From positions 115,690-179,689 of the forward strand of contig NZ_BBMB01000006.1 of NCBI RefSeq assembly GCF_000971235.1: a stretch of DNA of 64,000 nt, in the 5' to 3' direction. The notes under the pieces are model-generated. The model was not told where the DNA came from, searched no databases, and worked only from the letters and a program-made list of their open reading frames with translations. This stretch comes from Demequina subtropica (lineage in GTDB: Bacteria > Actinomycetota > Actinomycetes > Actinomycetales > Demequinaceae). Positions 159-13,842 of the stretch are shown one piece after another; the first letter of the stretch is position 1, and the number at the start of each line of letters is the position of its first letter. Position numbers and translations under genes: made by a program.

Positions 159-1625
159 GTGACCCGCACCCGCGCCGCCGCTGCGGCCGCCACCCTCGCC
201 GCCGCCACCCTCTCGCTCAGCGCCTGCGGCGCATCGTCCGAGGGCGGCCTCCCCGACCTCGCGGCGCCCACCTTCACCGACGTGACCGTCCATGACCCGT
301 CCGTGGTGACCTCGGACGACCAGATCTGGGTGTTCGGCTCCCACGCCGCTTCGGCCTACACGACCGACCTCATGAGCTGGACGCAGAACTCCATGAGCGT
401 CGGCGACGCCGATGCCGCGGGCCTGTTCGACGACATCCGCACCGAGCTGGCCGAGACCTTCGAGTGGGCGCAGTCCGAGACGCTGTGGGCCGCGGACGTC
501 GTCGAGCTGCCGGACGGCCGCTACGCGATGTACTACAACGCCTGCGAGGGCAGCTCGGCACGCTCCGCGCTGGGCGTCGCCATCGCCGACGAGGTCGACG
601 GCCCGTACGTCAACCAGGAGATCCTCCTCAAGTCCGGGATGTGGGACGAGGAGTCCGAGAACCCCGGCGAGATCTACGACGCCACCCTCCACCCCAACAC
701 CGTCGACCCGGACGCGTTCTACGACGAGGACGGGAACCTCTGGATGGTCTACGGCTCGTACTCGGGCGGCATCTTCATCCTCGAGATGGACGAGGAGACC
801 GGCCTGCCCCTCGAGGGCCAGGGCTACGGCACGCACCTGGTCGGCGGCAACCACTCGCGCATCGAGGCGCCGAACATCCGCTTCGACGAGGAGACGGGCT
901 ACTACTACCTGTTCCTCTCGTTCGGCGGCCTGGACGCCTCGGGCGGCTACGAGCTGCGCGTCGCGCGCTCCGAGAGCCCCGACGGCCCGTACGTCGATGC
1001 CGAGGGCAACGACATGTCGACCGTCGCGGGCGCTCCCGGGACCGTGTTCGACGACGCGTCGATCGAGCCGTACGGCGTCAAGGTGATCGGCGGCTACGAG
1101 TGGGCGGACGGCCCTGGCATGGGCGGCGATGCCGGCTACGTCTCCCCCGGCCACAACACCTGGTACGACGACCCGGACACCGGCGAGACGTTCCTCATCT
1201 TCCACTCGCGCTTCATCGGCACCGAGGAGATGCACAACGTCCGCGTGCACCAGCTGTACATGAACGCCGACGGCTGGCCCGTGCTGTCGCCCGAGCGCTA
1301 CGCGGGCGAGAGCCTCGTCGCGGCCAGCGAGGACGATGCGGCGGGCACCTACCAGGTGGTGACCTTCGACAAGGTGATCTCGCCGCTGGTCCCCACCTCC
1401 GTCGAGGTGACGCTCGCCGAGGACGGGACCGTCGCGGGCGCGCTCGAGGGCACGTGGGAGCTGTCCGGCGACCAGGACCTCACGCTCACCGCCGGCGACG
1501 CGACCTACACGGGCGTGCTCGCGCCCGTGTGGAACCCGACCGCCGAGGCGTGGACGTGGGGCCTCACCGTGACCTCCGGGCAGGGCGTGCCCCTGTGGGG
1601 CCGCCAGGACGTCGACGCGGCCTGA
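159..1625 (+). CDS. GH43 endo-arabinanase-like lipoprotein
   Basis: Predicted extracellular, membrane-anchored glycoside hydrolase of family 43, most like the longer bacterial endo-1,5-alpha-L-arabinanases with a C-terminal beta domain (AbnB type, about 470 residues; this one is 488). A signal peptide ends in the lipobox LSAC with Cys23. The five-bladed propeller shows the usual triad: Asp46 in HDPSV (general base), Asp183 in VDPDAFYD (pKa modulator) and Glu236 in RIEAPNI (general acid). A downstream SPGHNTW motif fits the metal-binding His of the subfamily. About 120 C-terminal residues form a separate beta-rich domain. The GTG start is chosen because AGGAG (148-152) sits 6 bases upstream. 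It converges on the large glycosidase gene and is the only plus-strand gene of the arabinan locus. Family is secure; arabinan specificity is inferred from the subfamily and from the neighbouring GH127. Confidence 0.85.
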   Translation: MTRTRAAAAAATLAAATLSLSACGASSEGGLPDLAAPTFTDVTVHDPSVVTSDDQIWVFGSHAASAYTTDLMSWTQNSMSVGDADAAGLFDDIRTELAETFEWAQSETLWAADVVELPDGRYAMYYNACEGSSARSALGVAIADEVDGPYVNQEILLKSGMWDEESENPGEIYDATLHPNTVDPDAFYDEDGNLWMVYGSYSGGIFILEMDEETGLPLEGQGYGTHLVGGNHSRIEAPNIRFDEETGYYYLFLSFGGLDASGGYELRVARSESPDGPYVDAEGNDMSTVAGAPGTVFDDASIEPYGVKVIGGYEWADGPGMGGDAGYVSPGHNTWYDDPDTGETFLIFHSRFIGTEEMHNVRVHQLYMNADGWPVLSPERYAGESLVAASEDDAAGTYQVVTFDKVISPLVPTSVEVTLAEDGTVAGALEGTWELSGDQDLTLTAGDATYTGVLAPVWNPTAEAWTWGLTVTSGQGVPLWGRQDVDAA

Positions 1626-1667: not shown

Positions 1668-1683
1668 TGGCATGTCCGGGGTG

Positions 1684-4600
1684 CTATCCCCTGTCGGTGA
1701 GGCGCGACACCGTGATCCGATCGATGATCGGCGAGGTGTCGGCCCGGAGAGGGATGCCCGGCCAGTTGTCCTCGGCGTAGGTCGTTCCGTCGAAGTTGGG
1801 CTGCTCCTCCGAGCCGAAGGCGATGGTGTTCTCCCCCGCGACGAGGTCGAGCACCAGCGTCCGCTCCCAGAAGCTGTTCTCGTGGAACGTCGGCACGAAC
1901 AGCACCGACTCCGGCTCGCCCCCGTTCACCGAGATGAGCGCGCGGCGCGCCATCGGGTTGGGGTTGTAGTGCGTCGCCGGCACCTGCTCCGGGTTGGAGA
2001 AGCGCACCACCACCGCGTGCGGTCCCGCCTCGGCGGCGTCGACGGAGAAGGTCAACGTGCTGACGTTCCCCGGCGCCCCGCCGATGCCATCGACGGCCTG
2101 ACCGCCCTCGGCCAGCGAGAGATCCACCACATGGGCTTCGCCCTCGAGGGTCGCGTCCTCGGCCTGGTACGCGACCGCGCCGAGACGCCCCTTCGAGGCG
2201 CCCACGAGCAGGCGGTCGACCGTCGCCGGCCCCGTGACGACGACCTTGTTGACACCGCCCATGAGGTGGACGGCAGCCGAGGTCGAGGCCCGCAGATCCA
2301 TGACCTGCTCGCCGTTGACCGCCACGGAGCCCTTCGCGACGCCGCTCGTGTCGAGCGACAGCGAGTGCTCGCCGTCGACGTCGCCGTAGACCCAGAAGGT
2401 CGCGGTCTCGCCGAGCTTCAGCTGCACGGCGCCGGACCCGGAGACCCCGCCCCGGTACTTCGGCGTCACGGACGTGTCCGCGAGCTCGGCCTCGTAGGCG
2501 TCCACCGCATCGTCGCCCGCCGCGCGGGTGAGCGTGATGCGGTCGACGATGGCGTCGCCCTGGGTCGCACCCGTGCCGTCGAGGCTCCGCGCGGACAGCG
2601 TGAGCGTGTGCTCGCCCGCGGTGAGATCGACCGTGGTGTCGGCGTGGTCCCACACCACCCACTTGTAGCCGAGCGTGAGGAACAGCTCCTGCTCGTCGGC
2701 GCCGTCGACCGTGAGGAACACGTTGGTGGGTCCCTGCTCCGCGACCAGCCCGTAGGTGTTGAGGCTGTTGGCGAAGACCGAGAGGTCGTACGCCCCGTCG
2801 TCGGGCACGTCGACGGTGAAGTCGAGCGCGACGTCGGAGCCGGTCCGCAGGCCGCCGACGTTGTACGCCCCCGACGTGTAGAACAGGTCGACGCGCGCAG
2901 GCGTGCCCTCGGGGCCGTTGACGCTGTAGCCGGAGCCCGTGTGCGCGGCGTCCTCGGCCTCGTACGAGGCCGACCATGCCGGCGACGCGGAGCCCGCGGC
3001 CGCGGAACCCTGAGGCGTCACGACGATCTCGTATGCCGAGGACTCCTTCAGCGCGGGCAGCGCACCCTCGCCGAACTCGAACGAGGCCTTGCCGTCGACC
3101 ACGGGCAGCACCATCTCGGCGAGCGTCTCGGGCTGCGCCGAGTCGCCGATCTGACCGGTCCACGCGATCTCACGGACCCAGACGCGCACCTTGCCCGTGA
3201 AGCTCGCGGGCAGGCCGACCAGGTCCACCGGAGCGGCGCCGGCGGCCCCGCCGATGATCGCCCGCACCTGCTTCCTGCCGGTGTCGAGCGCGGCGACGCC
3301 CTGGAGCGTGTAGTTGTCGCCCGGCCATGGCGGGGTGACCTCGAGGGTCTGCCCCGTCATCTGTGCGTACTCGTGGTACAGCCACCACTGCCCGTTGCCG
3401 CGGTTGGACTGCACCGCGGAGTCGGAGAGGTTGCCGTCGATGTTCCAGAACGCGATCTGCGCGTCGACCTTGGAGTCCTCGATCGCGGAGATCCACTGGA
3501 TCATCTGGCCGGGAACCGACGTGTGGTAGTTGAACGCGTACTCGTTGATGTTGATCGGCAGCTCGGTGCCCTCGTACGAGGTGCCCGCGAATGCGGCCGC
3601 CTCCCAGCCCCGGAACCTCTCCACCGAGTCGCGGATCGCCTGCGGGTGCGACAGCTCGTGCCACGTGATGATGTCCGGGACGGTGTCCTCCTCGACCACG
3701 TGGGCGAGGTATCCCTGCATCTGCCCGAACAGCACCGAGGTTCCCGGTCCCGCGACCCGGAGGTCGGGGAACGCGGCCTTGATGGTGCGGTAGGACTCGT
3801 CCCAGGCGGCGAAGTAGTCCGTCGGGTCGCTGAGCCACGACGTGCCGTCGAGGCTCCACTGCCCGGTGCCGAACATGTTCCCCTCGGGCTCGTTGAACGG
3901 CTCGATCACCAGGTGGGCGCGCTGGTCCGCGGGGATCTGCGCGATCATCTCGAGCTGGTCCGCCAGGACCCCGCGGTAGGACTCGAGCTTCTCCTCGGGA
4001 GTGTCGCCCGGCCACTCGTAGGGGAACCCGCGATACCAGTCGGTGATGCGCAGGTAGACGTCGCCGCCGGTGGTCTCCGCCAAGGTCGGGAGGACCTCGA
4101 GCGCATCTGCTCCGGGTTGCTGCGCGCCGTCCTGCGCCTTGGTCGAGACGGTGCGGATGCCCATGCCCTCGATGAGGTTCTCCGTGGGCATGCCGTCCCC
4201 GTAGAGGCCGTAGAGCACGCCCGCGGCGCCGCCCATGAAGTCGCCCGTGGTCGTTCCCGCGTCGATGGCGATCTGGCCGCGGTGCACGGTGACCTCCGCG
4301 GTGACGGGGTAGCCGCCCGCGTCTCCCGACACGGTGAAGGTGCCCTCGGCCGTGTACGCGGCCTCGGGGACCTCGTCCCACGTGATCGGGACGTCGCGGT
4401 CGTAGCCGTCGGAGAAGGACGCCGATGCGGCGGCCGGGAGCGCGGGGGCCCCGCCCACGAGCGTGCGGACGGAGAACGCGTCCTCCGCGAGCGCCTCCAG
4501 CGTCGGGATGCCGCGGGTGACCAGCGACGCGACCTCCTCGGGCGTGAGCGCCGCGCGGTAGACGCGGAACTCGTCGATCGCGCCGTCGAAGGCAGGATCG

Positions 4601-6600
4601 GGGTAGAACGATCCTCCGATGCGACCCGCGTTCGCCGCGGTCGCGCTCAACAGCTCTCCCGCGGTGATGTCGGTGGCCACGGACGCGAGCGCGACACCGT
4701 CGAGGTACGTGGTCATGACGCCCGCCGTGGTGTCGAGCGTGGTCGTGACCGTCGCCCACTCCCCGGTGCGCAGCGCGCCGACGCCCGTGATCTGGTCCTC
4801 GGCGGAGCCCCCACCACCGGTAGTGATGGCGGTGCGCATGTTGCCGTCCGAGTTCGACGGCGTCCAGAACACGTATCGGGTCGTGCTGGTGCCCAGCCCG
4901 TAGAGCCACTGCCAGGCCGCACCGCCGTCCCACCGCAGGCGCGACGAGACGGTGAGGTCGGTCGCGCCGTCGAGGATGTCGCGGGGCACGGTCACCGCGC
5001 CGCCGGTGAGGTCGAGCGCGTCGCCCTCGACCCCCGCCACGATCCCCGTGGAGCCGACGATGGCGCCGTCGAGGTTGTTGCCCGAGGAGTCGGGCACGAT
5101 GCCGTCGGTGACGTCGTCCATCGTGTAGAGCAGGTCGGGCGCAGCGAGCGCGCCCGGCTCGAGCGACTCCACCTGGGCCGCGGTGAGCGCGCCGCGGTAG
5201 ATGCGGAAGTCGTCGACCTCGCCGTCGAAGGTGGGGTCCCACCAGAACACCGAGCCGCCCAGGTAGCCGCCCGTGTCGTTGCCAGGGTCGACCAGGGCGT
5301 CGGCCGTGATGGTGGTGCTCGCGCTGCCGACCGCGACGCCGTCGACATACGTGGTCAGGAGGTCCGCAGCGGAGTCGAGCGTGACCGTGACGGTGCTCCA
5401 CTCGTCCGTCGCGAGGGGCTCTGTCGCGAGCACCTGCGCCTCGGCGGCGTCGCCGCCGACCGTGATCCCCGTGCGCAGCGCCCCGCCGAACGCCTCACCC
5501 GTGCGCGGGATCGCATAGAGGTACCTCGAGAACGTGGTCCCGACCCCGAAGAGCCAGCCCCAGTCGTGGGTGCCGTCCCAGCGCACACGCGCCGCGACGG
5601 TGAGATCCGCGCTGCCGTCGATCACGCCGCGCGGGAACGTGACGTAGCCGCCGCTGAGGTCGAGCGCCGCGCCGTCGAGGCCCTCCGAGGCCTCGGCCGC
5701 GCCGGACAGCGTGCCGTCCCAGCCGTTGCCGGACACGTCGGCGACCACGCCGTCGGCGACGTCGTCCATCGTCCAGTGGAGGTCGGGAGCCGTCTCGTCG
5801 ACCGCGGGGGCCGGCTCCGGCTCGGGCTCCGGCGGGACGTACTCGACGCCCACGAGCGCGGCCACCTGCTCGCCGTCGAGCGCGGTGCGGAACAGCTGGA
5901 AGTCGTCGACCGCGCCCTTGAAGGTCGGGTCGTTGTAGAACGAGCCGCCGATCGAGCCGGACGATGCGGCGGCCGCGTCGACGAGCACACCCGCGGTGAT
6001 CTCGGTCGACGCGGAGGCGACGGTCACGCCGTCGAGGTACGTGGTGAGGCGGTCCGCCTCGGCGTCGAGGACCACGGTGACGGTGCTCCACTCCCCCGTG
6101 GCCATCGCCGCAGGGAAGTCGACGATCGCCTCGACCCCGGGCCCGCCGACGGTGACGGCGCTGCGCATCACCTGCGTGGTGCCGGCACGGGGCGTGGTGA
6201 ACAGATAGCGCGTGGTGTCCGTGCCGAGGCCGAACAGCCACTGCCAGTCTCCGGGCTCGTCCCAGCGCGCGCGGACCGACACCGTGAGGTCCGTCGCGCC
6301 CGCGAGGGGGCCTCCGGGGATCGTCACGGTGCCGCCGGTGAGCGCGAGCGCCGCACCGTCGTCGGCTCCATCGGTGACGCCGGTCGAGCCGACGATCACG
6401 CCGTCCCAGCCGTTCACCGACGAGTCCGGGACCGTCCCTCCCGCGACATCGTCCATCGTGTAGTGCAGGTCGGGGGCCGGTACGTCGACCGCCGCCGCCG
6501 GCGTGGCCGTCGCGACGCCGGCCGCTCCCAGCGCCAGCGCCGACGCCACCGCCGTCCATCGTGCCCATGACGGGCCTTGCCTGGTGAGCTCTCGCATCAT
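1684..6600 (-). CDS. Secreted 1638-residue multidomain glycosidase (3 LamG, Ig-like, clan-A barrel, C-terminal carbohydrate-binding modules)
   Basis: Very large secreted enzyme of uncertain substrate. A signal peptide ending in ATPAAA precedes three similar concanavalin-like LamG domains (roughly residues 41-245, 270-465 and 486-695). Each opens with PDLxxTMDDV and closes with DxFxxxRxALxxxxV. A Big_4-like Ig domain follows (about 696-775), then a TIM-barrel glycosidase with NEP and NEY motifs. Glu904 (PFNEPEG) and Glu1020 (NINEYAF) are the expected acid/base and nucleophile of clan GH-A, the fold of GH39, GH5 and relatives. The last 430 residues hold three beta-sandwich modules, two opening with the YEAEDA/YQAEDA signature of CBM6/35-like domains. 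The start at 6600 (MMREL) follows AGAGAGG. An upstream in-frame start would put 19 arginine-rich residues before the signal peptide. The last gene of the lacI-transporter-GH127 run, it probably acts on an arabinose-containing polymer; I cannot assign a GH family. Confidence 0.75.
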   Translation of the reverse strand: MMRELTRQGPSWARWTAVASALALGAAGVATATPAAAVDVPAPDLHYTMDDVAGGTVPDSSVNGWDGVIVGSTGVTDGADDGAALALTGGTVTIPGGPLAGATDLTVSVRARWDEPGDWQWLFGLGTDTTRYLFTTPRAGTTQVMRSAVTVGGPGVEAIVDFPAAMATGEWSTVTVVLDAEADRLTTYLDGVTVASASTEITAGVLVDAAAASSGSIGGSFYNDPTFKGAVDDFQLFRTALDGEQVAALVGVEYVPPEPEPEPAPAVDETAPDLHWTMDDVADGVVADVSGNGWDGTLSGAAEASEGLDGAALDLSGGYVTFPRGVIDGSADLTVAARVRWDGTHDWGWLFGVGTTFSRYLYAIPRTGEAFGGALRTGITVGGDAAEAQVLATEPLATDEWSTVTVTLDSAADLLTTYVDGVAVGSASTTITADALVDPGNDTGGYLGGSVFWWDPTFDGEVDDFRIYRGALTAAQVESLEPGALAAPDLLYTMDDVTDGIVPDSSGNNLDGAIVGSTGIVAGVEGDALDLTGGAVTVPRDILDGATDLTVSSRLRWDGGAAWQWLYGLGTSTTRYVFWTPSNSDGNMRTAITTGGGGSAEDQITGVGALRTGEWATVTTTLDTTAGVMTTYLDGVALASVATDITAGELLSATAANAGRIGGSFYPDPAFDGAIDEFRVYRAALTPEEVASLVTRGIPTLEALAEDAFSVRTLVGGAPALPAAASASFSDGYDRDVPITWDEVPEAAYTAEGTFTVSGDAGGYPVTAEVTVHRGQIAIDAGTTTGDFMGGAAGVLYGLYGDGMPTENLIEGMGIRTVSTKAQDGAQQPGADALEVLPTLAETTGGDVYLRITDWYRGFPYEWPGDTPEEKLESYRGVLADQLEMIAQIPADQRAHLVIEPFNEPEGNMFGTGQWSLDGTSWLSDPTDYFAAWDESYRTIKAAFPDLRVAGPGTSVLFGQMQGYLAHVVEEDTVPDIITWHELSHPQAIRDSVERFRGWEAAAFAGTSYEGTELPININEYAFNYHTSVPGQMIQWISAIEDSKVDAQIAFWNIDGNLSDSAVQSNRGNGQWWLYHEYAQMTGQTLEVTPPWPGDNYTLQGVAALDTGRKQVRAIIGGAAGAAPVDLVGLPASFTGKVRVWVREIAWTGQIGDSAQPETLAEMVLPVVDGKASFEFGEGALPALKESSAYEIVVTPQGSAAAGSASPAWSASYEAEDAAHTGSGYSVNGPEGTPARVDLFYTSGAYNVGGLRTGSDVALDFTVDVPDDGAYDLSVFANSLNTYGLVAEQGPTNVFLTVDGADEQELFLTLGYKWVVWDHADTTVDLTAGEHTLTLSARSLDGTGATQGDAIVDRITLTRAAGDDAVDAYEAELADTSVTPKYRGGVSGSGAVQLKLGETATFWVYGDVDGEHSLSLDTSGVAKGSVAVNGEQVMDLRASTSAAVHLMGGVNKVVVTGPATVDRLLVGASKGRLGAVAYQAEDATLEGEAHVVDLSLAEGGQAVDGIGGAPGNVSTLTFSVDAAEAGPHAVVVRFSNPEQVPATHYNPNPMARRALISVNGGEPESVLFVPTFHENSFWERTLVLDLVAGENTIAFGSEEQPNFDGTTYAEDNWPGIPLRADTSPIIDRITVSRLTDRG

Positions 6601-6687
6601 CGAGCACCTCTCTGTGACTCTTCGGGGATGCCGACGGCTGAGGGACGCCGGCCTCACGCGCCCGCCAGCGAGAAGCGGACGCGAGGT

Positions 6688-8634
6688 CTATCGGGGCGGG
6701 GCGACCTCCCAGACGGCAGGCAGCATCACGCGCATCTGCGACGGCGCGCGTTCACCCCAGCGGTGGTAGGGCACCAACGGGAGATCGAAGCCGACCTCGG
6801 ACGCCGGGTCCGTCGGCCGTCGCGACGCGAACGGGGGCGTCGCAGGGGCCGCCGCGGGCTCGCGACGGCGCGTGGCGGCGATGACGGCCCCGTCGCCCGC
6901 CGCGCGGGGCGCGCCGGTCGCGTCGACGCGCACGTCCTCGATCCCGACGCCCTCGGGAAGGTCGGTCGACTCGAGGCACAGCACGAGCGGGCCCCTCTCG
7001 ACCGCGACGGTGCCGCGCATCGCATCGATGCGGGGGTCGGGCCAGACGATGCGCGGGTCCAGGTCGAGGTCGAGCACCACGACGTCCCCGGCCGTCCAGG
7101 TGCGCCGCGCCTCCCACCAGCCCGGCGCCACCTCGGTACGGGTGCCCGTCGCGTCGGTCACGGTCGCGTGCCGCGCCCAGGCCGGGACGCGCAGCCGCAA
7201 CGCCACGGGCTCCTGCGGCGCCTCGACCACCGCGACGTCGACGCGACCGTCGTCCGGGTAGCGCGTCGCCACCTCGAGCCGCATCCGTCCCGACGACAGC
7301 GCGACGTCCACGGAGCCGGGCGAGTACAGCAGCAGGGTCAGGGCGTCGTCCTCGACCATCGCGGCGTAGGTGTGCAGCGCCGCGAAGGTGCGTGCCACGT
7401 TCGTCGGGCAGCACGACACGTCGAACCACGGCGCACGGACACCGCCCTCGGCACGGTGGTTCACCCCGTCGCCGGCGTACTCGGCACCTGCGACCCTGAC
7501 GTGCAGCGGGTTCGCATAGAAGAAGCGCGTGCCGCCCTGATCCGCAGCCGCGGCCACGACGTTGTAGAGCGTCCTCTCGATGAGGTCGGCGTACCGGACC
7601 TCCCCCGACGCGAGCAGGAGCCGCCACGACAGCATCACGGACCCGACGCCCGCGCAGGTCTCGCAGTAGGCGCGGTCGGGCGGCAGCTCCCAGTCCTCGC
7701 CGAAACCCTCGTCCTGATGCCGCGACCCCATGCCGCCTGTGATGTATGTGCGCCGCTCGACGGTGGTGGCCCACTGGCCCTCGAGCGCCGCGAGGAGCTC
7801 GCGGTCGCCGGTTTCGACCGCGACGTCGACGGCGCCCGCCGCGAGGTAGAGCGCACGCACCGCGTGGCCGCGGAGCACCGTGCCCTCGCGCACGGGCACG
7901 TCGTCCTGGAAGTACTCGTCCGAGAGCAGAGGACGGACCGGCAGGGTTCCCCGTCCGCGGCGCTCGACGAACACGCGCGCCTGGTCGAGGTAGCGCCGCT
8001 CCCCCATCGCACGGCCCAGCTCCGCGAGGCCGAGCTCGATCTCGGGATGGCCGCACAGGCCCTCGCGCGCGCCGGGCGCGAACTCGCGGCACACATGCTC
8101 GGCGGCTCGGCGCGCGGCCGCCACGAGGGCATCCTCGCCGGAGGTCCGCAGGCGGGCGACCGCGGCCTGCATGAGGTGGCCCATGTTGTAGAGCTCGTGG
8201 CCCATCGACAGGTCGGAGTACCGCGGCGGCAGGCCCGGATGCCCGAATGCCGTCCCCAGGTAGCCGTCCTCGTCCTGCGCGGCGACGACGCGCGCGACCA
8301 GGGCGCCGTACGCGGCGGCGAGCCGCGCATCGTCCCTGCGTCCCAGCTCCCAGGCGATGCCCTCGAGCAGCTTGTAGACCTCCGAGTCCGCGAACTCCCA
8401 GCCCGCGCGCTCATCGGTGACGTCGCCGCGCGCGACCCTGTCGAAGTTCTCGAGCCAGCCCAGGCGCTCCATCCAGTCGGCACAGTGCGCGAACGTCGCG
8501 GCGGCGTTCACCGCCTGACGCCTGCCCCAGAAGCCGTCCGGGCCCCAGACGACCTCCCGAAGCCCGGCTCCCCTGCGCGAGACGGCGCTCGGCCGGACGG
8601 GTGCGGCTGCGCCGCCGTCGCTCCTCTGGTCCAC
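6688..8634 (-). CDS. GH127 beta-L-arabinofuranosidase-like enzyme (cytoplasmic)
   Basis: Glycoside hydrolase of the GH127 (DUF1680) family, 648 residues, close to the length of bifidobacterial HypBA1. HypBA1 releases L-arabinose from beta-L-arabinofuranosides using a cysteine nucleophile beside a Zn site built from Glu338, Cys340, Cys417 and Cys418 (family knowledge). The equivalents are visible here as Glu325 and Cys327 in CETC and Cys408-Cys409 in SCCPTN, so the enzyme should be active. No signal peptide or transmembrane segment is seen, so it should work on oligosaccharides imported by the adjacent ABC transporter. The GTG start lies 3 bases after the permease stop codon, with AAGGA inside the permease end, so the genes are translationally coupled. 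GH146 relatives share much of this signature, so the exact family number is less certain than the chemistry. Confidence 0.88.
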   Translation of the reverse strand: MDQRSDGGAAAPVRPSAVSRRGAGLREVVWGPDGFWGRRQAVNAAATFAHCADWMERLGWLENFDRVARGDVTDERAGWEFADSEVYKLLEGIAWELGRRDDARLAAAYGALVARVVAAQDEDGYLGTAFGHPGLPPRYSDLSMGHELYNMGHLMQAAVARLRTSGEDALVAAARRAAEHVCREFAPGAREGLCGHPEIELGLAELGRAMGERRYLDQARVFVERRGRGTLPVRPLLSDEYFQDDVPVREGTVLRGHAVRALYLAAGAVDVAVETGDRELLAALEGQWATTVERRTYITGGMGSRHQDEGFGEDWELPPDRAYCETCAGVGSVMLSWRLLLASGEVRYADLIERTLYNVVAAAADQGGTRFFYANPLHVRVAGAEYAGDGVNHRAEGGVRAPWFDVSCCPTNVARTFAALHTYAAMVEDDALTLLLYSPGSVDVALSSGRMRLEVATRYPDDGRVDVAVVEAPQEPVALRLRVPAWARHATVTDATGTRTEVAPGWWEARRTWTAGDVVVLDLDLDPRIVWPDPRIDAMRGTVAVERGPLVLCLESTDLPEGVGIEDVRVDATGAPRAAGDGAVIAATRRREPAAAPATPPFASRRPTDPASEVGFDLPLVPYHRWGERAPSQMRVMLPAVWEVAPPR

Positions 8635-8637
8635 GTG

Positions 8638-9456
8638 TCAGTCCTTCACCGCTCCGGCGGTGACCCCCGCGGCGACGTACCGTTGGGCGAACACCAGGAG
8701 GAACGCGGCCGGGACGGACGCGACCACCGCGGTCGCCATGATCGCGTTCCAGTCCTGGGTGTTGTTGCCCAGGTAGCGGAAGATGCCGATCGTCACCGGT
8801 TGGAGGTCGCCTCCACGGTTGAGCGACGAGGCGAACAGGAAGTCGGACCAGGACCAGAGGAAGGCGAAGAGCGCCACCGTGACCACCGAGTTGCGCGAGA
8901 CAGGGATCACCACGGACCTGAACGTCCGCCACGCGTTCGCGCCGTCGATCCGCGCGGCCTGGATCAGCTCGTTCGGGATCCCCATCATGAACGCCGTGAA
9001 GATCAGCACACCGAACGGCACGGCCAGGGTCGAGTCGGCGATGATGAGGCCCGGGATCGTGTCCAGCAGACCCCATTCGTTGAAGACCAGGTAGAACCCC
9101 ATCGCCATGATGATCCCGGGGATCATCTGCGCGACCAGGAGGACGAAGTTCAGGGTGCTCCCGCCCCTCGGGAACAGCTTCGCGAGAGCGAACCCTGCCG
9201 GCGCGGCCACCACGAGCGTGAGGGCCACGGTGCCCAGACCGATGATGAGGCTCGTCCCCAGGTAGGGCAGCTGCTCGTGGATGACCTTGTCGTAGCCGGC
9301 GAAGGTCGCGTCGATCGGGACCAGGTTGGGCGGGTCCTTGCGCAGCAGATGAGGCGGCGTGAGGGAGACGTTGATCATCCAGTAGAGCGGGAACAGCATG
9401 ATGGCCGTGAGGATCAGCGCGATCACGGTGGTGACGGCGCGGCGTGACCGGGTCAT
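8638..9456 (-). CDS. ABC sugar transporter permease, MalG type
   Basis: Inner-membrane permease of a carbohydrate uptake ABC transporter (CUT1 class). Its 272 residues show six hydrophobic segments and the conserved cytoplasmic EAA-type loop GIPNELIQAARIDGANAWRT, which contacts the ATPase. The ATG start overlaps the stop of the upstream permease as ATGA (9453-9456), and GH127 begins 3 bases after its stop, so the set is one operon. Longer in-frame upstream extensions lie inside the other permease gene and are rejected. No ATPase gene is present in the locus. In actinobacteria such importers commonly share an MsiK-type ATPase encoded elsewhere. Confidence 0.88.
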   Translation of the reverse strand: MTRSRRAVTTVIALILTAIMLFPLYWMINVSLTPPHLLRKDPPNLVPIDATFAGYDKVIHEQLPYLGTSLIIGLGTVALTLVVAAPAGFALAKLFPRGGSTLNFVLLVAQMIPGIIMAMGFYLVFNEWGLLDTIPGLIIADSTLAVPFGVLIFTAFMMGIPNELIQAARIDGANAWRTFRSVVIPVSRNSVVTVALFAFLWSWSDFLFASSLNRGGDLQPVTIGIFRYLGNNTQDWNAIMATAVVASVPAAFLLVFAQRYVAAGVTAGAVKD

Positions 9457-10436
9457 GAGCGGAGCGCCTTCCTCTGGGCACGGATGTAGAACAGCCCGAA
9501 CACGAACGCGATGAGGATGAGCACGTTCGCCACGGCTGCCGCGAGGCTGAGCTCGGGCGATCCCCCTCCGAAGCCGAGGCGGTACGACCAGATCGCGAGC
9601 GTGGTCGACGAGTCGCCCGGCCCGCCGCGCGTCATGACCCAGATGATGTCGAACACCTTGAGCGTGTAGACCAGGCCCAGCAGCAGCGTGATGGCGCTGA
9701 CCGGGCGAAGCAGCGGGAACGTGATGTGCCAGAAGATCGACCAGCGGCCGGCACCGTCGAGCGCGGCCGCCTCGTAGACCTCTCCCGGGATCGCCTGCAG
9801 GCCCGCGTACAGCAGCACCAGGTTGAACGGGATCCCGATCCAGATGTTGGTGATGATGACCGACACGAGCGACCAGTCCGGCGAGGTGAGCCAGAAGACA
9901 GGGTCGAGGCCGAGCGTCTGCAGGAAGGAGTTGACGACGCCCGAGTCGGAGTTGAGCATCCAGGCCCAGACCGACGAGGACACGAGCAGCGGCAGGAGCC
10001 AGGGCACCAGGAAGAGCGCGCGCAGCGTCGCCGCAAGCGGGAACCGCCGGAAGAAGAAGACCGCGAGCGCGAGCCCGATGGAGTACTGGAACACCAGCGA
10101 GAGCCCGGTGAACAGGACGGTGTTCCACAGCGCGGTCGGGAAGGTGGGATCGGTGAAGATCTCGCGGTAGTTATCGAGCCCCACGAACTCGGCGCCGCCC
10201 GTGATGAACGAGCGCAGCGTGTAGTCGCGCAGGCTGAGGTCGACGTTGCGCCACAGCGGCAGCGCGTAGAACAGGACGAGGTACAGCGTGACGGGGGTGA
10301 GGAACAGCCACGCCACGAGCTGCTGCCGCCGCGCGGCGCGGCGCCGCTCGCCCGGCGAGGGGACGGCCGGAGCCGCCCCCTCGCCGTCGCGAGGACGGTC
10401 AGCTGACGCGGGGGTTCGTGTCGCCGACATGGTCAT
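9453..10436 (-). CDS. ABC sugar transporter permease, MalF type
   Basis: Partner permease of the CUT1 importer, 327 residues. A cytoplasmic Pro/Arg-rich N-terminus of about 35 residues precedes the transmembrane segments, and the EAA-type loop reads AIPGEVYEAAALDGAGRW. The start at 10436 follows GGAGG with about 7 bases of spacing. A second in-frame ATG lies two codons downstream. It follows the binding-protein gene after 49 bases that contain a small hairpin, and it overlaps the next permease by 4 bases. Substrate is inferred to be an arabino-oligosaccharide from the flanking GH43 and GH127 genes. Confidence 0.88.
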   Translation of the reverse strand: MTMSATRTPASADRPRDGEGAAPAVPSPGERRRAARRQQLVAWLFLTPVTLYLVLFYALPLWRNVDLSLRDYTLRSFITGGAEFVGLDNYREIFTDPTFPTALWNTVLFTGLSLVFQYSIGLALAVFFFRRFPLAATLRALFLVPWLLPLLVSSSVWAWMLNSDSGVVNSFLQTLGLDPVFWLTSPDWSLVSVIITNIWIGIPFNLVLLYAGLQAIPGEVYEAAALDGAGRWSIFWHITFPLLRPVSAITLLLGLVYTLKVFDIIWVMTRGGPGDSSTTLAIWSYRLGFGGGSPELSLAAAVANVLILIAFVFGLFYIRAQRKALRS

Positions 10437-10485: not shown

Positions 10486-11751
10486 TCAGCCCAGCTTGGA
10501 CGCGGCCTCCAACTGCGCGGTCGCGAGCGCGTCCTCAGGCGACGAGCCGCCGCTCAGCGCGACCTGGATCGCGGTGTAGAGCTGCTCCGAGATGATCGGG
10601 TACTTGATGCCCAGGTTGTCGGCGGTGCGGGGCTTCGCGTCCGCCACCGCCTGGACCCAGAACTCGTTGGCGCCGGCGGTGTCCGCCGCGGCCTGCGCCG
10701 AGGCGCCCTCGGCGGTCGGCGCGACGTAGCCGAGCGCGGTCGCGCCCGAGTCGCCGTTCGCGAGGCACTCGACGATCTGCGCGGACGTGGCGTAGCGCGA
10801 CTCGTCCTCCTGGATCGGCAGCGTCATGAACTCGCCTCCCGTGGGCGCCGGTGCGGCGCCGCCGTCCATCGCCGGGATCTGGATCACCTCGTAGCCGTTC
10901 TCGTCGGCCGCGCCCTGGAACCACGAGCCGTTCTCGGCGAATCCGAAGTCGCCCGTGAGGAACTCGTCCCACGAGGTCCCCTGCGTGTTGGTGAGCACGG
11001 ACTGCGGCGCGAGGCCGTCCGCGACCCAGTCGGTCCACAGCGTGAGCGCCGCGACCGACTGCTCGGAGTCGAGCGCGGTGAGGTCGGCATCGGCGCCCCA
11101 GAACCAGGGCAGGAACTGGAAGGAGCCCTCCTCCGTGCCGACCGCGGAGAACGTGATGCCCTTGTGTCCGGCGTCGACCACCTGCTGGATCGCCGCGGTG
11201 AGAGACTCCCAGTCCGTCACGGACGCGATGTCGACACCCGCCTCCTCGAGGACCGTCGGGTTGTAGTACAGGCCCAGCGTGTTCGCGCCGACGGGCACGC
11301 CGTACACCTCGCCGTCGATCTCGCCTGCGGTCAGGATGTTCTCCTGGATGCTCGACGTGTCGAGACCGTTCTCCGCGGCCGTGGTGAGCAGGCCGGCATC
11401 GGCGAGGGTCGACACCTTCGGGTTGTCGACCATCGCGATGTCGGGCAGGTTCGAGGCCGCGGTGGTGAGGTCCTTCACGGTGTCGCCCGTGTTGCCGGAG
11501 TTGCGCTCGATGGTGATGCCGAGCTCGTCGGCGCACGCGTCGATCGCCTGCGCCCAGGTGCTCTGGTCGTCGCGGTCCGGGTACGGGTCCCACAGCGTGA
11601 AGGTGCCGCCTGCTGCCGGGGCGTCCGTGCCCGCGCCCGTCGGGGCGTCCGACGAGCCGGGGGCGGTGTCGGACGAGCAGCCGGCGAGCGCGCCCGCTGC
11701 GATCGCCGCGGTCGCGAACGCGACGGCGGCCTTGGTGCTGGTGTTGCTCAT
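10486..11751 (-). CDS. Extracellular solute-binding lipoprotein of the sugar ABC transporter
   Basis: Family 1 sugar-binding protein, 421 residues, that captures the oligosaccharide outside the membrane and delivers it to the MalF/MalG pair. The signal peptide ends in LAGC with the lipid-acceptor Cys25, followed by a Ser/Ala/Pro/Gly-rich linker. FTLWDPYPD begins the first lobe, and aromatic residues such as FLPWFWG and GSWFQG are typical of ligand stacking positions. The start at 11751 is preceded by AAGGAGG, one of the strongest ribosome sites in the window. A longer frame would run back into lacI and is rejected. lacI lies 41 bases upstream on the same strand, so the regulator gene heads the transport operon. 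Ligand is inferred from context only. Confidence 0.9.
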   Translation of the reverse strand: MSNTSTKAAVAFATAAIAAGALAGCSSDTAPGSSDAPTGAGTDAPAAGGTFTLWDPYPDRDDQSTWAQAIDACADELGITIERNSGNTGDTVKDLTTAASNLPDIAMVDNPKVSTLADAGLLTTAAENGLDTSSIQENILTAGEIDGEVYGVPVGANTLGLYYNPTVLEEAGVDIASVTDWESLTAAIQQVVDAGHKGITFSAVGTEEGSFQFLPWFWGADADLTALDSEQSVAALTLWTDWVADGLAPQSVLTNTQGTSWDEFLTGDFGFAENGSWFQGAADENGYEVIQIPAMDGGAAPAPTGGEFMTLPIQEDESRYATSAQIVECLANGDSGATALGYVAPTAEGASAQAAADTAGANEFWVQAVADAKPRTADNLGIKYPIISEQLYTAIQVALSGGSSPEDALATAQLEAASKLG

Positions 11752-11792
11752 CGTTCCTCCTTGAACGTGAACCCGGGGACGGGTCGGTGGGG

Positions 11793-12821
11793 TCAGCCCC
11801 GCGAGGCTGGGGGTGGTGCGATGGATCCGCGGTCGTGGATGGTGGGCGGGATCAGCTCGACAAGATGAGGAGCCGCTCCCGCGGGATCGCCCTCGATTCG
11901 AGCGACGAGCTGCTCCACAGCCCGCCGCCCCAGCTCGTCCGCGGCGCTGTCGACCGCCGAGAACGGAAGCGAGAAGGTCCGTGCGAAGTCGTCCGAGTAG
12001 CGGCCGAGCACGGAGATGTCGGCGGGGCTCGACAGGCCCCTGGCGGCGAGCACCGACGGCAGCGCAGCCGCCGCGGCCTCGTTGTTCAGCAGCAGCCCCG
12101 TCGCGCCGGGATGGGTGTCGAGGTACCGGTTCAGGTCCTCGCCGATCGCGGGCTGGCTCGAGGCGCCGAAGTACCGATGCAGCTCGATGCCGCGTTCGTC
12201 TGCGCGCGCCTGCGCGCCGTCCGCCAGACGCCACACGTAGGCGCCTCCACGCGCGACCACATGCTCCGGCTGGGACACGAGGATGAGCTCGCGATGGCCG
12301 GCGTCCGCCATCGCGTCGACCATGATCCGCCCGCTCGCGACGAAGTCGAGGTCGAAGACGTCGATGCCGTCGCACTGCTCGGGCAGCCCGACGGTCGCGC
12401 CCGGCTGAAGCGCCTCGCGCAGGAAGCCGAGCCTGTCGTCGTGCTCCGCGACGTTGAGCAGCACGAAGCCGTCGACCATCCGGGACGTCGAGAGGCGCTT
12501 GAGCGCGTTGACCCCGTCCTCCTCCGAGACCAGGAGCGTGTCGTAGCCGAGCTCGCCGGCACGATTGGTGACGCCGAGGATGTACTGCAGCATCGCGGGT
12601 GCGAACTCGTCCGACAGGAACCGCCCGAGCAGTCCGATCACCTTCGTCTGCGAGGTCGCGAGCGCGCGCGCCCCGGCGTTCGGCGTGTACCCGAGCTCGT
12701 CGACCGCGTCGAGGACGCGCTGGACCACCGCGGGCGAGATGGTCCGCTTGCCGCTGAGCGCGTAGGACGCGGTCGAGCGGGACACCCCCGCCACCCTCGC
12801 GACGTCACCGATGGTCACCAT
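11793..12821 (-). CDS. LacI-family transcriptional regulator of the arabinan locus
   Basis: DNA-binding repressor of 342 residues. The N-terminal helix-turn-helix reads MVTIGDVARVAGVSRSTASY and is followed by the hinge helix PNAGARALATSQT and a periplasmic-binding-protein-like effector domain ending near residue 330. The start at 12821 is the usual LacI position and follows AAGGAG. Two copies of the palindrome CGAACCGGTTCG lie 46 and 82 bases upstream, suggesting autoregulation of the whole lacI-transporter-GH127 run. The inducer is probably a product of the adjacent glycosidases. Its paralogues in other sugar loci are similar, so the specific sugar cannot be read from sequence. Confidence 0.88.
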   Translation of the reverse strand: MVTIGDVARVAGVSRSTASYALSGKRTISPAVVQRVLDAVDELGYTPNAGARALATSQTKVIGLLGRFLSDEFAPAMLQYILGVTNRAGELGYDTLLVSEEDGVNALKRLSTSRMVDGFVLLNVAEHDDRLGFLREALQPGATVGLPEQCDGIDVFDLDFVASGRIMVDAMADAGHRELILVSQPEHVVARGGAYVWRLADGAQARADERGIELHRYFGASSQPAIGEDLNRYLDTHPGATGLLLNNEAAAAALPSVLAARGLSSPADISVLGRYSDDFARTFSLPFSAVDSAADELGRRAVEQLVARIEGDPAGAAPHLVELIPPTIHDRGSIAPPPASRG

Positions 12822-12865
12822 CGACGCTGACTCCTTCGTCGTTGAACGAGTGCTGCACACCTGTA

Positions 12866-12879
12866 TCGAACCGGTTCGA
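12866..12879. promoter_or_regulatory. LacI-type operator 1
   Basis: TCGAACCGGTTCGA is a perfect 14-base palindrome centred on CCGG. It lies 46 bases upstream of the lacI start and next to GATACA, which could be the -10 box on the minus strand. It shares the 12-base core CGAACCGGTTCG with operator 2. Confidence 0.7.
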
Positions 12880-12901
12880 CTCGACGCGACCGACGATATA
12901 G

Positions 12902-12913
12902 CGAACCGGTTCG
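12902..12913. promoter_or_regulatory. LacI-type operator 2
   Basis: Second perfect copy of CGAACCGGTTCG, centred 35 bp from operator 1, a spacing of a little over three helical turns. The pair is suited to cooperative binding by one dimeric or tetrameric LacI protein encoded immediately downstream. Confidence 0.7.
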
Positions 12914-12992
12914 ACAGCGCAATGGCGGATTCTCCCCGTGACCGAATCGTGATGTTCGTCCCGGTCGCGCCGATGCGACCGTCGACGCCGCC

Positions 12993-12998
12993 TAGGGT
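12993..12998 (+). promoter_or_regulatory. -10 box of a probable leaderless transcript (HAD gene)
   Basis: TAGGGT ends 7 bases before the GTG start at 13006, so transcription should begin at or next to the start codon. No convincing -35 is seen. Confidence 0.4.
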
Positions 12999-13005
12999 GA
13001 GGGGC

Positions 13006-13842
13006 GTGACCTCCCCCGCCCCCGCATCGTCCCGCCGCGCGATCTTCCTCGACGTCGACGGCACCTACGCCCACCACGGCGTCGTCCCCGAGGCCCACGC
13101 GGACGCGGTGCGCGCGGCGCGCGCCGCGGGCCACCTGGTGCTGCTGTGCACGGGACGCCCGGTGTCGCTCCTTCCCGAGCGCATCACGGCGGCCGGCTTC
13201 GACGGCTACGTGGCCGGCGCCGGCGCGTACGCGATCGTGGGCGAGCGGGTGCTGCTCGACACGCGCTTCCCCGCCGCGCTCGCCGCACGGTCCCTCGATG
13301 AGCTCGCCGCCGCCGGCGCGCTGTTCCTGCTCGAGGGCCCGCATGCGACCCACGCGCACCCCGCGACCGTCGACGCCATGGCGGCACACCTGCCCCAGCG
13401 CGGGGAGCAGGGCGCCGGCCGACGCGACCTCACCGCGGCGATCACGCGCACCGAGGACCTCACCGGCGTCCCGTTCGGCAAGATCACCACGTTCCACGCG
13501 GACGTCCCCGTCCACGCGATCGCCGAGGCCATCGGCCCCGAGGTGGCGGTGATCCCGAGCTCGATCCCCGACCTCGGCCCCGGCGCGGGCGAGATCTTCC
13601 TCGCCCACGTGCACAAGGCCGTGGGCGTCGCGGCCGTGGTCGAGCACCTGGGCCTCGCCCGCGAGCAGGTGATCGCGTTCGGGGACGGCCTCAACGACGT
13701 CGAGATGCTCCAGTACGCCGGCACCGGCGTGGCCATCGAGGGCGGGGACGACGCCGCGCTCGCCGTCGCCGACCGCACCGCCGCCGGGCCCCGCGAGGCC
13801 GGGCTCGCGAGGGCGTTCGCGGAGCTCGGGCTCCTCGGCTAG
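13006..13842 (+). CDS. Cof-type HAD-IIB phosphatase
   Basis: Cytoplasmic HAD-superfamily hydrolase of 278 residues, likely a sugar-phosphate or related phosphatase. The four HAD motifs are present: FLDVDGT (nucleophile Asp and acid Asp), CTGRP, a Lys in HKAVGVAAV, and FGDGLNDVEML, which binds Mg. The C2B-type cap between motifs II and III places it in the Cof/YwpJ group. The start at GTG 13006 gives the usual position of motif I near residue 13; longer frames run into the lacI promoter region. It is divergent from lacI and convergent with the GntR gene. Substrate cannot be predicted. Confidence 0.82.
   Translation: MTSPAPASSRRAIFLDVDGTYAHHGVVPEAHADAVRAARAAGHLVLLCTGRPVSLLPERITAAGFDGYVAGAGAYAIVGERVLLDTRFPAALAARSLDELAAAGALFLLEGPHATHAHPATVDAMAAHLPQRGEQGAGRRDLTAAITRTEDLTGVPFGKITTFHADVPVHAIAEAIGPEVAVIPSSIPDLGPGAGEIFLAHVHKAVGVAAVVEHLGLAREQVIAFGDGLNDVEMLQYAGTGVAIEGGDDAALAVADRTAAGPREAGLARAFAELGLLG

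Follow-up and report, generated by a model that had tools for sequence, protein, structure and literature searches.

An Arg-type clade of GH39 with a neighboring GH127: a predicted arabinose-disaccharide-releasing enzyme from Demequina subtropica

The locus and its multi-domain enzyme

The window, that is, the whole 64,000-nucleotide stretch of Demequina subtropica DNA that was analyzed, encodes a multi-domain enzyme of 1638 residues (P0001; 1684..6600, minus strand). In the list of open reading frames, the stop-to-stop frame spans 1684..6657 (minus strand), and the ATG at 6600 gives the 1638 residues; this frame passes the codon-GC screen (GC of 0.68, 0.53, and 0.94 by codon position), whereas a rival plus-strand frame of similar length (1672..6570) fails it. 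Across 50 aligned relatives, the barrel region is 61–95% identical in 44 and 27–42% identical in six distant ones, and the C-terminal tail is 46–94% identical to that of the window protein across 45 relatives; because barrel and tail are both conserved, the alignments indicate that the minus frame is no chance frame. The protein is the sole match to itself at an e-value of 0.001 in the source genome (3.08 Mb, 23 contigs). A hydrophobic stretch followed by an Ala-rich end, seen by eye, forms a putative signal peptide (about residues 1–38; 6487..6600, minus strand), and inspection of the last 60 residues by eye shows neither a sortase motif nor a membrane helix; the protein is probably secreted and, given the latter observation, probably released.

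Away from this gene, and in the same direction (minus strand), follow genes for a GH127 enzyme (6688..8634), two ABC sugar permeases (8638..9456, start codon tentative; 9453..10436), an extracellular solute-binding protein (10486..11793, start codon tentative), and a LacI-type regulator (11793..13064, start codon tentative). The catalytic, middle, and C-terminal domains of the GH127 protein score 266.4, 51.8, and 58.7 bits, above the Pfam cut-off, and the conserved CETC and CCP motifs are seen in the alignment; the PDB entry that it matches best, 6ex6, carries just the name six-hairpin glycosidase and ranks ahead of named β-L-arabinofuranosidases, and its best NCBIfam model is aceric acid hydrolase (346.8 bits vs a cut-off of 950). 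Its proposed activity is that of a β-L-arabinofuranosidase; the protein has no signal peptide by eye, and we propose it as a cytosolic partner of the secreted enzyme. The genome encodes three GH127-type genes and an L-arabinose isomerase domain.

Convergent with the main gene lies a GH43 gene with a GH43_C domain (159..1625, plus strand) that domain and PDB searches place close to endo-α-1,5-L-arabinanases (e-value 7.5e-157). A second endo-arabinanase-like GH43 is encoded to the left of the window (L118:14947-17349, plus strand); that enzyme bears a LamG of its own at the C terminus and an atrophied Big domain. Among window frames of at least 100 codons, no homologue of the GH31, GH36, or MGH1-like candidate partners discussed below was found at an e-value of 10−10.

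Assignment of the barrel to GH39

Domain search and alignment confirm the protein outlined in the original prediction, with its 1638 residues, three LamG domains, clan-A barrel, and catalytic Glu904 (NEP) and Glu1020 (NEY). In that prediction the barrel could not be placed in a known GH family; comparisons with the PDB by sequence, profile, and fold agree that it can. The barrel and a small β domain occupy residues 774–1197 (3010..4281, minus strand). The best match in a single-sequence search of the PDB is 5u22 (molecule N2152, NF2152; e-value 1.8e-30), the second is the Ig-like part of a β-galactosidase, and the third is the GH39-like 8uwt (2.7e-21); with a profile of 51 aligned members, the e-values for 5u22 and 8uwt become 1.6e-84 and 4e-80. 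The predicted barrel model, for which a structure search had been proposed, can likewise be placed: with the AlphaFold2 model (pLDDT 89.4), the search (VIA) returns 8uwt (Z 45.1, rmsd 2.2 over 388 residues) and 5u22 (Z 44.7, rmsd 2.3 over 391 residues), the next entry listed having a Z of 24.9. Because these three comparisons agree, and because NF2152 serves as the reference for GAfase and AAfase (PMC10688797), we regard it as close to certain that the barrel is a GH39 of the NF2152/GAfase/AAfase branch, and an unassigned or new GH family was rejected.

NF2152, from Neocallimastix frontalis, is a GH39 α-L-(β-1,2)-arabinofuranobiosidase (PMC10688797). It shares the barrel and small β domain over its whole solved chain (26% identity) as well as both catalytic Glu; it differs in having Glu110 where Arg851 stands here, and its solved 423-residue chain is without LamG or tail modules. 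The fold of 8uwt is nearly identical to that of our model, and the sequences are 25% identical; a search for a paper describing 8uwt found none. A profile alignment pairs Glu904 and Glu1020 with the NEP and NEY motifs of 5u22, and both columns hold Glu in 92 of 92 aligned rows (the window protein and 91 frames from 80 loci); they are the predicted acid/base (3889..3891, minus strand) and nucleophile (3541..3543, minus strand), respectively.

The Pfam model for GH39 (PF01229) scores 11.3 bits on the full protein and 13.4 bits on the core alone, below the gathering score of 26. It matches 15 of 51 aligned members at an e-value of 0.1 (best, 3.3e-4) and does not match the AAfase-like protein of locus L112 at 0.001; PF01229 thus seems not to cover the NF2152/GAfase/AAfase branch. 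NCBIfam has nothing over the barrel, and nothing at 0.1 for one Streptomyces relative or for L112. The barrel had seemed unassigned because the Pfam GH39 model matches the clade just weakly.

Accessory modules

The Pfam model Laminin_G_3 finds three stretches (e-value 4.4e-56) that, together with a custom profile, define LamG 1 (residues 43–250; 5851..6474), LamG 2 (residues 272–481; 5158..5787), and LamG 3 (residues 488–694; 4519..5139), followed by a Big_4 Ig-like domain found by Pfam (residues 710–764; 4309..4473), all on the minus strand. The three C-terminal modules that had been claimed are present in the AlphaFold2 model (mean pLDDT 85.7; all minus strand): module 1 (about residues 1209–1361; 2518..2976) is galactose-binding-like and resembles CBM35/CBM6-type domains in a structure search (Z up to 17.7); module 2 (about residues 1365–1469; 2194..2508) is a small β module of tentative fold; and module 3 (about residues 1474–1633; 1702..2181) is CBM35-type by Pfam, PDB sequence, and structure search (best 2wz8, Z 21.0).

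By the custom profile, the three LamGs are 50–59% identical to each other, and among 81 proteins one LamG occurs in 74, none in four (one of which, L014, is cut by a contig end), and three in three, namely this protein and its counterparts in D. gelatinilytica and D. mangrovi, all Demequina. A FastTree of the LamGs of 19 of the 81 proteins places LamG 3 in one group (support 0.95) with the only LamG of another Demequina protein, so LamG 1 and LamG 2 are probably later additions. The protein had been called an unusual build; the triple LamG is real, but it is a small expansion of a one-LamG plan within the Demequina lineage, and for AAfase itself three galactose-binding-like domains have been reported besides the GH39 domain (PMC10688797). 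We therefore rejected the triple LamG as a strongly unusual build. As a separate observation on relatives, some main frames at L037, L008, and L011 exceed 2000 codons stop-to-stop, with at least 800 codons before the LamG.

The profile of the tail still matches L103–L106 (e-values of 4e-27 to 2e-36) and finds no match in the AAfase-like proteins of L112 and L113 or in the distant barrels of L048 and L107. As for the LamGs, such a domain on a bifidobacterial GH146 is reported to raise its activity towards larch arabinogalactan (5.8-fold), sugar beet arabinan (1.7-fold), and gum arabic (1.1-fold; PMC10850190); by analogy, this suggests a substrate-holding role here. Bll3HypBA1, a GH146 β-L-arabinofuranosidase of Bifidobacterium longum that acts on terminal β-L-Araf, is described with an N-terminal LamG like those of this protein; it differs in belonging to another catalytic family and in releasing free arabinose.

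The specificity position and the Arg-type clade

According to the study of the bifidobacterial enzymes, Asn119 of GAfase, Tyr116 of AAfase, and Glu110 of NF2152 are equivalent residues at the −2 subsite, and the Asn119Tyr mutation converts GAfase-type to AAfase-type activity (PMC10688797). The aligned residue here is Arg851 (4048..4050, minus strand), that is, neither the Tyr or Asn that is the hallmark of AAfase and GAfase nor the Glu of NF2152; also, Phe859 stands where AAfase has Trp124. The alignment was anchored with the AAfase-like proteins of L112 and L113, both encoded in genomes of the same order. Numbered from where its open frame begins, L113 has Tyr115, Trp123, Tyr125, Glu189, and Glu315 vs positions 116, 124, 126, 190, and 315 in AAfase, L113 having one residue more between the two Glu. 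A GH36 gene adjoins both L112 and L113; the best model for that of L112 is β-L-arabinopyranosidase (553 bits vs a cut-off of 1100). The barrel of L112 is 34% identical to that of the window protein.

Among the 91 closest rows of the alignment (one pair identical), residue 851 is Tyr in 54 and Arg in 37. In a quick tree of 113 rows (SH-aLRT support only, midpoint-rooted for drawing, L120–L122 lying outside), the 37 Arg rows of the clade form one group with support of 100, nested within Tyr-type rows; the tree program flags long branches, those of L112 and L113 among them. Given this nesting, and because the two nearest outer groups (three and seven rows) also have Tyr at 851, Tyr looks older within the clade and Arg looks to have arisen once. 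Beyond the clade, 11 rows from distant barrels also have Arg at this position, so the residue is not peculiar to the clade. In Nonomuraea and others, a further GH39-like barrel that is distant (27–30% identical) and has the motif ELWNEPD and Arg at the specificity position is encoded close to the main gene, at L048 (785-2863, minus strand) and once each at L041, L049, L058, L044, and L021.

Fourteen columns separate Arg-type from Tyr-type rows at more than 85% on both sides, and four besides 851 do so nearly cleanly: column 856 (His in 53 of 54 Tyr-type rows, Tyr in 37 of 37 Arg-type rows), column 883 (Val in 54 of 54, Leu in 37 of 37), column 900 (Val in 54 of 54, Glu in 37 of 37), and column 1051 (Tyr in 53 of 54, Phe in 37 of 37). 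Glu900 (3901..3903, minus strand), which is Val in the Tyr-type relatives, thus changed together with residue 851. The AlphaFold2 secondary structure puts 851 and 900 at the ends of two strands of the barrel, 856 and 1051 after strands, and 883 in a helix; given this placement, all of them except 883 are likely to face the pocket.

Genome neighborhoods of the relatives

Relatives were taken as the best 80 of 345 stretches encoding one (61–96% identical); all of these 80 are from Actinomycetota, and the nearest named relative is that of Demequina gelatinilytica (96% identical in the barrel). At an e-value of 10−10, and with distant matches and the source genome included, matches occur in 46 of 396 genomes of the same order and in seven of 396 genomes of a phylum sample, three of the latter having a match of at least 60%; with so few genomes matching, the clade is scattered, not universal. 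Searches of the open-licence literature found no study of the clade and no reported activity for any member at least 58% identical.

Neighbors were counted in single-sequence searches with one query per family at an e-value of 10−20, so distant GH36, GH31, or GH43 may escape, and contig ends cut some of the 80 loci. With those limits, LacI is found near 69 of the best 80 of 345 relatives, ABC genes near 64, GH127 near 48, an MGH1-like gene near 24, GH31 near 19, and GH36 near two; a GH43 like that of the window accompanies two of the 80, both Demequina. Among loci flanked by 5 kb or more on each side, GH127 is present at 21 of the 23 that are Arg-type and at 21 of the 41 that are Tyr-type (Fisher p 0.001), an excess that is confounded by descent because the clade's Arg arose once and the loci are not independent. 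GH127 accompanies both types, and residue 851 as a predictor of the partner enzyme was not supported.

The MGH1-like gene is present at 17 of the 29 Streptomyces loci, always right beside a permease, and GH127 is present at two. It encodes a six-hairpin enzyme (PF22422; L055:2582-4390, minus strand, and 23 other loci) and stands in Streptomyces where other genera have GH127; for the L055 protein, the nearest solved structure is a partial match (e-value 2.3e-10). Several loci hold more than one candidate partner enzyme, and because 19 of the 80 loci carry GH31 and 17 of the 29 Streptomyces loci an MGH1-like gene, the partner may be an imperfect guide to the product.

One genome carries both an Arg-type copy with GH127 (L016) and, at 58% identity, a Tyr-type copy (L120) whose neighbor is a GH31 closest to the α-xylosidase MeXyl31 (e-value 2.8e-248); the L120 locus has its own LacI, solute-binding protein, and permeases. 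Tyr-type GH39 and GH31 genes are paired at L120 (6579-10811 with 4252-6306) and at L121 (5093-10525 with 10561-12840); the closeness of the L120 GH31 to MeXyl31 hints at a version of GH39 that would release an α-xylosyl-arabinose.

Discussion

Taken with the characterized relatives, the neighboring GH127 and endo-arabinanase-like GH43 make a branched, arabinose-rich substrate plausible, as the original prediction had suggested. The bifidobacterial GAfase (BLGA_00340, B. longum) and AAfase (MCC10289_0425, B. pseudocatenulatum) are reported to release Gal- or Arap-(1→3)-Ara disaccharides and to be encoded in clusters with GH36, a solute-binding protein, two permeases, and LacI (PMC10688797). In the logic set out there, which is partly hypothesis, the GH39 outside the cell frees the disaccharide, an ABC transporter imports it, and an intracellular GH splits it. 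GH39, solute-binding protein, two permeases, LacI, and a partner GH are shared with the locus described here; the differences are Arg in place of Tyr or Asn, GH127 in the place of GH36, and three LamGs, a domain that goes unmentioned in the available portions of that account. By analogy, the bifidobacterial plan fits here with GH127 replacing GH36.

We propose a secreted, retaining exo-acting GH39 that would release an L-arabinose disaccharide, most likely β-L-Araf-(1→2 or 3)-L-Ara, from arabinan-type side chains, a reading for and against which we find the balance roughly equal. The LamG, CBM35-type, and Ig-like modules would hold the enzyme on plant polysaccharide; the pocket would take a terminal disaccharide with α-L-Araf as the −1 sugar and the capping sugar at the −2 subsite, next to Arg851; and cleavage, with Glu904 as acid/base and Glu1020 as nucleophile, would clip the disaccharide off decorated arabinan. 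The adjacent ABC transporter would import it, GH127 would split it to L-arabinose inside the cell, and the neighboring GH43 endo-arabinanases would open the stripped backbone. Disaccharide release is predicted from the activities of branch members; the identity of the disaccharide is proposed because the GH127 family includes β-L-arabinofuranosidases and arabinans bear terminal β-Araf on their side chains (PMC9655821, PMC10850190). We give this product about an even chance and word it as a prediction because the state of residue 851 does not predict the partner, Arg recurs in distant barrels, the GH127 specificity is itself predicted, and several loci hold multiple candidate partners.

Other products would follow if GH127 served another substrate. 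The enzyme might then release β-L-Arap-(1→3)-L-Ara, as AAfase does, or α-D-Gal-(1→3)-L-Ara, as GAfase does, from arabinogalactan proteins: the neighboring group in the tree, on branches flagged as long, holds L112 and L113 with their GH36 partners, Tyr, the AAfase residue, is found in 54 of the 91 close rows, and CBM35 module 3 resembles that of an exo-β-1,3-galactanase (7bys, Z 20.3). However, this protein has Arg851 instead of Tyr or Asn and Phe859 instead of Trp124, and the window holds no GH36 homologue, which is also near just two of 80 relatives; we consider such release unlikely. Slightly less likely again is release of a single sugar by an exo α-L-arabinofuranosidase or other clan-A exo-glycosidase that leaves the −2 space unused; classical GH39 β-xylosidases and GH51 arabinofuranosidases also have this fold, with lower Z, but the characterized members of the branch (NF2152, GAfase, and AAfase) free disaccharides, and within the clade the stretch around residue 851 shows strong conservation.

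A GH31 α-xylosidase partner would fit release of α-D-Xyl-(1→3)-L-Ara from xylan side chains. The Tyr-type paralogues L120 and L121 (58% identical) adjoin GH31, that of L120 being very close to MeXyl31, a related GH31 is found at 19 of 80 loci, and the visible part of the title of 8uwt mentions a 'Xylan Ut...' locus; against these stands the window itself, with GH127 and an arabinanase-like GH43 and no homologue of that GH31, and for D. subtropica we judge this product quite improbable. Action of the cluster on rhamnogalacturonan-II, with GH127 as an aceric acid hydrolase, would agree with the best NCBIfam model (346.8 bits) and with a best PDB match (6ex6) named only six-hairpin glycosidase, but the score is far under the 950-bit cut-off of that model and the GH43 neighbor fits arabinan; to this reading we assign very little weight.

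Returning to β-L-Araf-(1→2 or 3)-L-Ara as the preferred product, the neighborhoods can be read more broadly as a plug-in system, in which a cassette of barrel, importer, and partner changes the capping sugar that is handled by a swap of the partner (GH36, GH127, GH31, or MGH1-like); we put this forward tentatively, as a reading that, taken whole, we find somewhat doubtful.

The original prediction spoke of a possible new subfamily. The sequences describe a distinct Arg-type clade for which no characterized member was found, which agrees with that idea in part; the clade lies inside a GH39 branch that is already known, which does not. By sequence, a different partner (GH127, not GH36) and an altered specificity residue set the protein apart from the characterized members of the branch. 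Enzymes that break down arabinan and arabinogalactan are hindered where the arabinose side chains are capped, and the authors of a 2024 paper were aware of no enzyme yet discovered that releases Araf-β-1,3-Araf (PMC10850190); the clade, spread across many actinobacterial genera, offers candidates for such enzymes together with a defined specificity residue.
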